Below are positions 2,315 to 32,166 of a stretch of 33,203 bases of DNA, in pieces. Each line of letters begins with the position of its first letter. Within the stretch, counting starts at the first letter, position 1. The stretch covers positions 1 to 33,203 of IMG/VR virus record IMGVR_UViG_3300031277_000014. One strand, written 5' to 3'. Below the pieces are notes generated by a model, which saw only the letters and a list, made by a program, of their open reading frames with translations, did not search any database and had not been told where the DNA came from. The translations under genes were made by a program, and so were the position numbers. Source of the stretch: a virus.

Positions 2315-2344
2315 CCTGATGACTGAATGGGTAGTCTGGGTAGT

Positions 2345-2556
2345 GTTGTCCCCGCCCGCGCGGGGGTGATCCCGTCACCGAGGAGGTCTCCCGCGTCGTC
2401 TTGGCGTTGTCCCCGCCCGCGCGGGGGTGATCCGGAGATGGAGCAGTTCACCGCTGCCGTCACCGCGTTGTCCCCGCCCGCGCGGGGGTAATCCGTGGAG
2501 AGCTCTGATCGAGGCACGGACGTACAAGGTGTTCCCCGCGTAAGCGGGGGAGGTGG
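2345..2556 (+). CRISPR. Mini CRISPR array, type I-E repeats, 3 spacers, no cas genes nearby
   Basis: Three 28-base repeats at 2345-2372, 2406-2433 and 2467-2494 are identical except for one base near the end of the third (TGATCC to TAATCC). Each has a CCCCGC/GCGGGG stem, the hallmark of type I-E repeats. Period is 61 bases. Spacers are 2373-2405 and 2434-2466 (33 nt each) and 2495-2528 (34 nt). A fourth, divergent terminal repeat at 2529-2556 (GTGTTCCCCGCG, loop GTAA, GCGGGGG) keeps the stem. The degenerate end is on the right, so the array reads left to right on the plus strand. The leader side (2315-2344) is only 30 bases and not AT-rich. All three spacers can be read as coding sequence without stops (for example WRALIEARTYK in spacer 3), consistent with protospacers in genes. 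No protospacer is seen in this window. Confidence 0.93.
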
Positions 2557-2558
2557 AG

Positions 2559-2588
2559 GGGCCCCGGTGAGAACCGGGGCCCTTTCTG
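2559..2588 (+). terminator. Terminator hairpin closing the CRISPR array
   Basis: A perfect 10-bp stem GGGCCCCGGT/ACCGGGGCCC with a GAGA loop (2559-2582) is followed by TTTCTGT. It begins 3 bases after the terminal repeat and insulates the array from the next promoter at 2602. The U-tract is short, as is common in high-GC hosts. Confidence 0.75.
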
Positions 2589-25122: not shown

Positions 25123-25560
25123 ATGGTTCTTGCTGGTGAGAGGGCTAAAGCCTCGGATCTCGCGGCGCTGGAGTCCGTGGCCTGGACTTCCTTCCTACCG
25201 ACGTGGACGAACCTGACGATCGGGGCCGGGGGGGTCGGCACGTACTCGTACTGCAAGATTGGGCGCCTGATCGTGGCGTCGTACGAGTTCGTGCTGGGGA
25301 CGGGGTCGGCGGTGGGGACGGGGCCGTACGTGACGCTCCCGGTCCCGGCGTCCTCGAACCAGCTGATCGCAGCGGTGTCGGAGTACCGGGATTCGGCGCC
25401 AGCGGGCGTGTACTGGGGGGTTGCGCTGCAGTCTGGGTCGGTGATGCTGATGTGTCGGATGAGTGCGGAGGCTCGGACGGCGGTTACGGCGACGACGCCG
25501 TTCACGTGGGCCACCGGAGATAGCATCCGGTTCACCATCACGTACCAGTCAGCAAGCTGA
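25123..25560 (+). CDS. Small tail fibre/tip protein, 145 aa
   Basis: ATG 25123 has TAGGAGTTGAC upstream. The product begins MVLAGERAKASDLAALES, a common phage fibre N-terminus ('aGqkirAsDl'). It continues as a beta-barrel-like domain (TWTNLTIGAGGVGTYSYCKI, RLIVASYEFVLG, FTWATGDSIRFTITYQS), as in the C-terminal domains of actinophage receptor-binding proteins. It is the last plus-strand gene. Confidence 0.78.
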   Translation: MVLAGERAKASDLAALESVAWTSFLPTWTNLTIGAGGVGTYSYCKIGRLIVASYEFVLGTGSAVGTGPYVTLPVPASSNQLIAAVSEYRDSAPAGVYWGVALQSGSVMLMCRMSAEARTAVTATTPFTWATGDSIRFTITYQSAS

Positions 25561-25565
25561 TATGT

Positions 25566-25665
25566 CCCGTAGGTCGGATTCGCACCGACGTCCTTGCCCT
25601 GGGGTGGATTGTCCCCAGCTGTAGGTCCACCGACGGAGCACGCTCTACTGCTGAGCTACTACGGG
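25566..25665 (-). tRNA. tRNA-Pro-like gene 1 with 36-nt anticodon loop
   Basis: On the minus strand the 100-nt element has a perfect 7-bp acceptor (CCCGTAG/CTACGGG), TA at positions 8-9, D-arm GCTC/GAGC, anticodon stem TGCTC/GGGCA (one G-U), 5-nt variable loop AGGAC, and T-arm GTCGG-TGCGAAT-CCGAC. Everything is standard except the anticodon loop, which is 36 nt instead of 7 (25601-25636 on the plus strand) and can form its own hairpin (CTGGGG/CCCCAG or GTGGA/TCCAC). UCGG near the loop's 5' side, C1:G72 and discriminator A73 are proline-like features. The D-loop lacks the usual GG. No encoded CCA. It could be degenerate, an intron-bearing tRNA or a tRNA mimic. Confidence 0.6.
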
Positions 25666-25691
25666 CACCCCGGTGCTCGTCCCGGGGTGAT
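25666..25691 (-). repeat. Hairpin immediately 5' of tRNA-like gene 1
   Basis: On the plus strand CACCCCGG-TGCTCGTC-CCGGGGTG forms a perfect 8-bp stem. The same arrangement and loop (TGCTCR) recur beside tRNA-like gene 2 with different but still paired stem bases. The two tRNA-like units therefore look like diverged copies of one hairpin-plus-tRNA element. Confidence 0.6.
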
Positions 25692-25811: not shown

Positions 25812-25888
25812 ATAGTCCCCACCCGCGTGGGGGTGGCCCGGTGTAGGTGAGCCGTAGCGAGTTTTCCCCGCCCACGCGGGGGTAGGAA
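25812..25888 (+). repeat. Pair of degenerate type I-E CRISPR-like repeats, 21-nt gap
   Basis: Repeat A (25812-25839) and repeat B (25861-25888) align over 28 bases to the array repeats at 2345-2494. Repeat A has CCCCAC/GTGGGG where the array has CCCCGC/GCGGGG: two substitutions that preserve pairing. Repeat B keeps CCCCGC/GCGGGG with CCAC in the loop. The flanks (first 4 and last 4 bases) have diverged. The gap is 21 nt (25840-25860), too short for a normal type I-E spacer of 32-33 nt. This resembles solitary repeat units rather than an array. Confidence 0.75.
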
Positions 25889-25922: not shown

Positions 25923-25936
25923 GCTGGCGTTGTTGT

Positions 25937-26021
25937 CCTGTCGGACGGATTCGAACCGTCGTCTGCCCACGGCGGACGTGAGTCCCAACGTGGGTCCTCT
26001 TGGCCACTGAGGTACGACAGG
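25937..26021 (-). tRNA. tRNA-Pro-like gene 2 with 19-nt anticodon loop
   Basis: The 85-nt minus-strand element has a 7-bp acceptor (CCTGTCG/CGACAGG), TA at positions 8-9, D-arm CCTC/GAGG with GG in its loop, anticodon stem CCCAC/GTGGG, 5-nt variable loop CAGAC, and T-arm GACGG-TTCGAAT-CCGTC. The anticodon loop is 19 nt, 12 more than normal, beginning GTTGG. U33 followed by UGG, C1:G72 and A73 are what a proline tRNA (UGG) would have, with an insertion after position 37. An inner stem GGAC/GTCC can form in the loop. No encoded CCA. A long-variable-arm reading was tried and gives no anticodon stem. Confidence 0.65.
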
Positions 26022-31137: not shown

Positions 31138-31560
31138 TCAGAAATTTCCTGGCGCGACTTGCGCACAGAAAATACCTTGGTCACGCCACATTTGTACGCA
31201 CTGATCACGGTCGTCCAGTACCCGCAATTTGATTGGTTTCTCCTGAATCTGCAGCAGATACACTATGGAGCTCAGAAACGCGTTCTTCACCGCAGCGTCT
31301 TTCTGGCGGATTCCATCGGGACGCATGTAGAGCTGCGAGAACGGCACCTTGTGATCGGCGAGCCATTGGAGAGTCTGAGGTCGGCAGCATTCCATGCGTC
31401 CGGACACGACGATGATCTTGTGACCGGCTGCTGCCAGGGCCTGCACGATCTCGATCGTCGGAGTATTTGGCTGGTCTTCTCCGACGCGGTCCCAGTCGTA
31501 GGGGCCGCGCTCGCCGCGTAGGGCGAGCGTTCCGTCTATGTCAACGATCCAGGTACTCAT
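31138..31560 (-). CDS. HAD-superfamily phosphatase, polynucleotide 3'-phosphatase-like, 140 aa
   Basis: HAD motif I is VDIDGTLA (DxDGT, Asp7 and Asp9), motif II is IIVVSGR, and the C-terminal acidic motif is VLDDRDQCVQMWRDQG. The order and small size match the phosphatase half of T4-type Pnkp, which removes 3' phosphates (including 2',3'-cyclic) from nucleic acid ends. Directly upstream in the operon lies the separate kinase half, so the pair is a split Pnkp. Ribosome-binding site AGAGGAGATC. Confidence 0.8.
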   Translation of the reverse strand: MSTWIVDIDGTLALRGERGPYDWDRVGEDQPNTPTIEIVQALAAAGHKIIVVSGRMECCRPQTLQWLADHKVPFSQLYMRPDGIRQKDAAVKNAFLSSIVYLLQIQEKPIKLRVLDDRDQCVQMWRDQGIFCAQVAPGNF

Positions 31561-31627
31561 GATCTCCTCTGTTGTGGTCTGCGACGACGTGGCCCACGTA
31601 CAGGGCCGCGAACACCGTGCCGAGCAT
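31541..31627 (-). CDS. Possible 28-residue membrane-like peptide
   Basis: ATG 31627 overlaps the kinase stop (TGATG) and the frame ends at TGA 31541-31543 inside the phosphatase start. The peptide begins MLGTVFAALYVGHVVADH. This resembles the N-terminus of a longer streptomycete protein type I recall ('ALYVGHxVADHWVQT'), so it may be a truncated remnant kept for translational coupling between kinase and phosphatase. Confidence 0.4.
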   Translation of the reverse strand: MLGTVFAALYVGHVVADHNRGDHEYLDR

Positions 31628-32166
31628 CAATCGATCCACTTCCATTGGACGGTCCATCCCGGGGCGGTGGCCATCTTCCGAATGACGTCCTCGCCGACGC
31701 TGTCTGCGCGCAGGGCGTCACGCGCAACGCATTCTTCGACGTGAGTGTCGAGAGTGATTACGGTCGGCATAACGCCGAGATCGACCGCTAGCTCGGCCAG
31801 CCTTTCGATGCTGGTCTGGTAGAGGTTTGTCGAGTCCTCGACGACATAGTTAACCCCCGCCGCGAAGGCTGCGCGGATCATCGTCTCCTCCACCATCGTC
31901 ACAGTGTCTTCCTGGTCGTGGGTGCCAATACATTTCTCGTGGGGGTTTGGTCCCAGACACAGGAGATTGCGGGCATCGTCTCGTCCGATCCGGAGAGCCG
32001 GGATTCGGCACATTTCAGTCACTGTCTGGCGTGTTCTCATCACTGTGACGAGCCTGTGGGCGAAAGTTGTCTTTCCGGCGGCGGGGAGTCCCCGCAGGAT
32101 GACCAGACACCGATCGGTTTCGGCGAGGATCTCGGCTGTGGTCTTGTCCGGGTCGTAGTAGGTCAT
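31627..32166 (-). CDS. P-loop polynucleotide kinase (5'-kinase half of Pnkp), 179 aa
   Basis: The Walker A motif is GLPAAGKTT (residues 26-34), followed by a T4 Pnk-like helical region. RIGRDDARNLLCLG supplies the Asp/Arg typical of the kinase active site, VVEDSTNLYQTSIERL is a lid/Walker-B-like segment, and VITLDTHVEECVARDALR ends it. It transfers phosphate from ATP to 5'-OH ends. In T4 such an enzyme repairs tRNA cut by anticodon nucleases. ATG 32166 overlaps the DUF2637 gene's stop by four bases (ATGA). Confidence 0.82.
   Translation of the reverse strand: MTYYDPDKTTAEILAETDRCLVILRGLPAAGKTTFAHRLVTVMRTRQTVTEMCRIPALRIGRDDARNLLCLGPNPHEKCIGTHDQEDTVTMVEETMIRAAFAAGVNYVVEDSTNLYQTSIERLAELAVDLGVMPTVITLDTHVEECVARDALRADSVGEDVIRKMATAPGWTVQWKWID

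Follow-up and report, generated by a model that had tools for sequence, protein, structure and literature searches.

The phage genome described here carries a cas-less, phage-borne type I-E mini-CRISPR array that probably puts a type I-E system of its host to use in superinfection exclusion. The array lies in an IMG/VR virus record of 33,203 bases (the window, G000), an actinophage-like contig with the gene set of a tailed phage: terminase, portal, head protease, major head protein, tape measure, and endolysin.

Three 28-nt repeats, with starts spaced 61 and 61 nt apart, alternated with spacers of 33, 33, and 34 nt (Table 1). The repeat had a CCCCGC..GCGGGG stem of the type I-E kind, which together with the 61-nt period marks a type I-E array, and the short run of near-identical repeats and regular spacers was flanked by phage genes, as in a mini-array. 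In dinucleotide shuffles of the window, the expected mean number of sites within three mismatches of the repeat was 0.00. The earlier note, made from the sequence alone, had described these repeats, their period, the spacer lengths, and the degenerate terminal repeat, and it was right on all of them and on all coordinates. The leader block contained a weak −35-like ATGACT, with a TAGTGT overlapping repeat 1, making a possible weak promoter; a promoter scan of the window scored none at the leader block, and a terminator scan scored none at the hairpin that follows the array. In the active type I-E system of Streptomyces avermitilis, the PAM is AAG and a −10 box overlaps repeat 1 (PMC4762764). 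No Rfam family matched in the window. The gene directly upstream of the array (1961-2314, +) matched PADLOC Unk_01, an “unknown small protein, sometimes fused to CARF”, and also falls in phage families of unknown function.

Table 1. Parts of the mini-array and the hairpin behind it, in coordinates of the window.
Feature	Position	Strand	Remark
Leader block ATGACTGAATGGGTAGTCTGGGTAGT	2319..2344	+	leader and repeat 1 54/54 identical in sibling phage
Type I-E repeat 1	2345..2372	+	
Spacer 1	2373..2405	+	29/33 to L064:6516-6548 (+), major tail protein gene
Type I-E repeat 2	2406..2433	+	identical to repeat 1
Spacer 2	2434..2466	+	33/33 to L064:3715-3747 (+) and to L063
Type I-E repeat 3	2467..2494	+	one substitution, GTAATCC for GTGATCC
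Spacer 3, 34 nt	2495..2528	+	same sequence in sibling phage
Degenerate terminal repeat	2529..2556	+	keeps CCCCGC-NNNN-GCGGGG stem
G+C-rich hairpin, then TTTCT	2558..2587	+	terminator-like

Two of the three spacers matched another virus. A 20-mer search of viral contigs with spacer 2 recovered two contigs, L064 and L063, both identical to it over the full spacer. L064 (14,496 bases) is an actinophage-like contig with its own terminase, a fused portal/protease/major-head open reading frame (ORF), a major tail protein, and a tape measure; its portal/head ORF shared about 28% identity with the counterpart in 15.5-kb Arthrobacter phages. The spacer 2 protospacer fell in the protease/major-head part of the fused ORF with the flank GCCGAA/G, giving the canonical AAG PAM. 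For spacer 1, a 20-mer and a codon-wobble pattern found nothing in viral_contigs, and its match came only from a direct scan of L064, where the protospacer lay in the major tail gene on the same strand as the spacer 2 site, with the flank GGTGAA/C. The first 19 nt of spacer 1, the PAM-proximal ones, matched perfectly, and all four mismatches fell beyond that stretch. Among 2000 shuffles of spacer 1, the best match to L064 had 9 mismatches; of some 2000 33-mers drawn from the carrier phage, a single one came as close as 4 mismatches in L064, and it probably comes from a segment common to both phages. The carrier itself had no match to spacer 1 or 2 within 10 mismatches. The base following the 28-nt repeat was G before spacer 2 (target AAG) and C before spacer 1 (target AAC), so that an AAG-type PAM stands 5′ of the protospacer with its last base in the repeat end, as in type I-E systems.

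Spacer 3 gave no comparable result: its 20-mer and wobble pattern matched only the sibling phage in viral contigs, and nothing lay within 9 mismatches in 30 relatives of the target phage. Searching phage and plasmid collections with all spacers by blastn returned only weak or 19-nt matches, which we discarded. The suggestion in the earlier note that protospacers lie in genes thus holds for spacers 1 and 2 (major tail and protease/major-head, respectively) and found no match to stand on for spacer 3. Likewise, of the two uses that it had offered for the array, against rival phages or against host targets, the former is backed by the matches of spacers 1 and 2; a role against host genes was considered, and no match supported it. 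The PAM that it had proposed looking for was present as AAG beside the protospacer of spacer 2, and AAC stood beside that of spacer 1.

Outside the spacers, carrier and target shared a 59-bp piece and a segment of the replication-initiator gene, in which one stretch was 74% identical and the proteins were 65% identical over 103 residues. This suggests that the hosts of the two phages overlap and that the competitor is no close relative.

An exact-repeat scan of the whole viral contig collection identified one other viral contig, G001 (also L004), of 36,739 bases. Its exact 127-nt end repeat indicates a closed genome, of 36,612 bases when closed, and it shared 89-97% identity with the window across the larger aligned blocks, with other patches more divergent. 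In the same place, this sibling phage had only the 26-nt leader block, one repeat, spacer 3, and the terminal repeat. An independent contig thus has the array, in a one-spacer form, in the same place, which rules out an assembly artefact. Leader block and first repeat were identical in the two phages (54/54), the sequence just upstream differed, and repeats 1 and 2 of the window were identical to the sibling's own first repeat. As the sibling has spacer 3 only, the window array differs from it by exactly two leader-proximal spacer-repeat units, both aimed at one target phage. These extra units look like a recent directional acquisition, and gain is mildly favored by the third repeat of the window, which ends in GTAATCC where the sibling has GTGATCC.

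The earlier note had placed the array in a region without cas genes, and this was borne out for the three families covered: models for Cas1 (PF01867), Cse1 (PF09481), and the Cas6e family (PF08798) had no matches in the window or in closed G001. Tyrosine integrase and resolvase models likewise had none in either, and control genomes did give matches. The lack of an integrase match suggests, as an indication and no proof, that the carrier is lytic or otherwise non-integrating. Its nearest terminase was that of Thermobifida phage P1312 (58% identity), which had no repeat of this kind. Elsewhere in the window, two neighboring genes, 31138-31560 (−) and 31627-32166 (−), each matched one of the two parts of a single polynucleotide kinase family (phrog_505), and this pair lay near tRNA-like sequences. 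A tRNA-like sequence with a long inserted piece at 25560-25670 (−) was not called by ARAGORN and was close to a called tRNA-Thr (cgt) at 25935-26021. A second type I-E-like repeat pair at 25812-25888 (also L065:4870-4946), again with tRNA-like sequences close by and with 99% conservation in the sibling, differed from the array repeat by 6 and 7 mismatches, with 21 nt between its repeats. Its second repeat had 2 mismatches over the first 23 bases, and for this 23-nt core, 200 Markov simulations gave no site within 2 mismatches. The 21-mer between the repeats had no self target, and the pair may represent a decayed array, a decoy repeat, or an ectopic unit with a short spacer.

The repeat had no exact counterpart in genome_contigs, where a degenerate repeat pattern recovered 53 loci, the nearest with 2 mismatches, and related repeats made long arrays of 61-nt period in Actinomycetota; none of 396 genomes of the phylum had the repeat within 1 mismatch. 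The comparison with actinomycete repeats suggested in the earlier note therefore yielded related repeats and not the identical one. With the identical repeat found in no bacterial genome, we infer the host and its Cas proteins. G125 had a two-repeat unit, but in a chromosomal setting and not in a phage, and comparing the repeat with phage records gave no comparable isolate phage. None of 689 spacers from the degenerate-pattern arrays matched the carrier within 7 mismatches; an apparent 20-nt spacer match to the carrier failed to extend across the spacer.

From expression and processing to interference, and for how and in which order the spacers were gained, we infer the following course. The array would be transcribed during infection of the host, and its RNA would be cut by host Cas6e and loaded into host Cascade. 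A co-infecting small actinophage resembling L064 would then be recognized in the genes for its major head and major tail proteins, next to an AA-type PAM, and its DNA degraded by host Cas3, amounting to superinfection exclusion by borrowed immunity. In the simplest history, spacers 1 and 2 would have been gained one after the other at the leader end and spacer 3 would be older, the route plausibly being host Cas1-Cas2, primed by the first spacer gained. Type I-E adaptation is marked by insertion at the leader end, by spacers that fall on one strand, and by a last repeat base that derives from the PAM (PMC3338789; PMC4762764), and the leader-proximal, same-strand spacers with their G and C repeat-end bases fit this signature. 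Against the use of the array for superinfection exclusion count the missing identical host repeat, the unscored promoter, the mismatches and AAC flank of spacer 1, and the targetless spacer 3.

The same weapon might have been assembled elsewhere, the two spacers having been acquired by an array on the host chromosome and brought into the phage through recombination between repeats. This route has been proposed for phage mini-arrays on the grounds that their leaders are unlike host leaders (PMC6858448, PMC7099407), and a pair transferred from a host array would likewise share target and strand. However, transfer requires a host array with an identical repeat, of which genome_contigs held none, and the exact match of repeats 1 and 2 to the first repeat of the sibling also speaks against it; we regard this origin as somewhat unlikely. 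Alternatively, it may be the sibling that changed, losing spacers 1 and 2 by repeat recombination, so that the window array would be the older, longer form with no recent gain. Spacer loss between repeats is common, and the comparison rests on two genomes, but recombination in the 23 bases common to repeats 1 and 3 would leave GTAATCC in place of the GTGATCC found, a mild argument that makes loss, in our judgment, unlikely. The targeting of L064 is unaffected by it.

Decay of a non-functional array captured from a host would explain why no promoter was scored, why the terminal repeat is degenerate, and why no identical host repeat was found. We consider it very unlikely, because leader and first repeat, spacer 3, and the terminal repeat are identical in the sibling despite differences upstream and elsewhere, and because a recent change in spacer content speaks against a decayed array. 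It is also highly improbable that the repeats act as an RNA anti-CRISPR (Racr-like), serving as decoys that sequester Cas proteins of the host, with the spacers incidental. Solitary repeat units in phages do inhibit I-E and other systems (PMC10651486), and the array here is likewise without cas genes, but a decoy would not be expected to have two correctly flanked spacers against one foreign phage; that near-perfect repeats occur several times here, and with normal spacers, also speaks against it.

Relatives of the target phage differed at the spacer 2 site. L069 was 94.5% identical to L064 over 4.4 kb with two indels relative to it, one of them a 3-nt in-frame insertion in the seed of the protospacer (within L069:5755-6055), which also had three adjacent substitutions near the end away from the insertion. 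L070 was 91.5% identical to L064, and its largest insertion, 12 nt and in frame, fell at the PAM/seed junction (within L070:3600-3900) of a protospacer that otherwise kept 31/33 bases. Escape from spacer 2 is an only suggestive reading of these insertions, because they lie in a linker of the head protein, where more distant relatives vary as well.

Arrays of this kind are already known. The Saccharolobus portogloboviruses SPV1 and SPV2 have short cas-less viral arrays with a leader, spacers matching a competing virus, and spacer turnover between siblings, and superinfection exclusion by host Cas proteins has been proposed for them (PMC6858448). Those viruses are archaeal and non-lytic, target each other as close relatives, and have leaders and repeats matching a known host, whereas the array here is a type I-E array of a bacteriophage with a distantly related target. 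Mini-arrays of bacteriophages and prophages (reviewed in PMC11656645) are similarly cas-less, sit in phage genomes, and are aimed at other viruses. As described, they have one or two spacers and repeats identical to those of the host, are directed mostly against related viruses, and occur mostly in temperate phages (PMC7099407); here there were three spacers, a distant target, no integrase match, and no host repeat found. The arrays of huge phages and landfill viruses (PMC7162821, PMC10076291) also direct phage-encoded spacers at structural genes of other phages, but in huge genomes, often with cas genes, or as survey-level matches, whereas here a 36.6-kb phage offers PAM, strand, and sibling comparison for one target. 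Racrs and other solitary repeat units (PMC10651486), with type I-E examples among them, share the phage-borne repeats without cas genes; unlike these solitary, Cas-inhibiting repeats, the array here has several repeats and targeting spacers. Less usual in our case are the growth or difference at the leader end between siblings, the distance of the target, and the fact that no integrase was detected.

Attacker and target are here a concrete pair, and PAM, strand, and the polarity of the array are all in agreement. Two siblings differing by two rival-directed units at the leader end make a stated open point testable, namely whether mini-arrays of bacteriophages lengthen through canonical adaptation or solely by recombining with host arrays. 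The pair suggests that such arrays may serve against largely unrelated competitors and not only close relatives, and that they occur in phages without a detected integrase as well as in prophages. More tentatively, we consider it possible that in a non-integrating phage the cas-less array is itself a substrate of host type I-E adaptation, recording spacers from a largely unrelated competitor during mixed infections, with primed same-strand gain and immunity inherited by the progeny. If true, this would be a phage with heritable adaptive immunity by borrowed enzymes.
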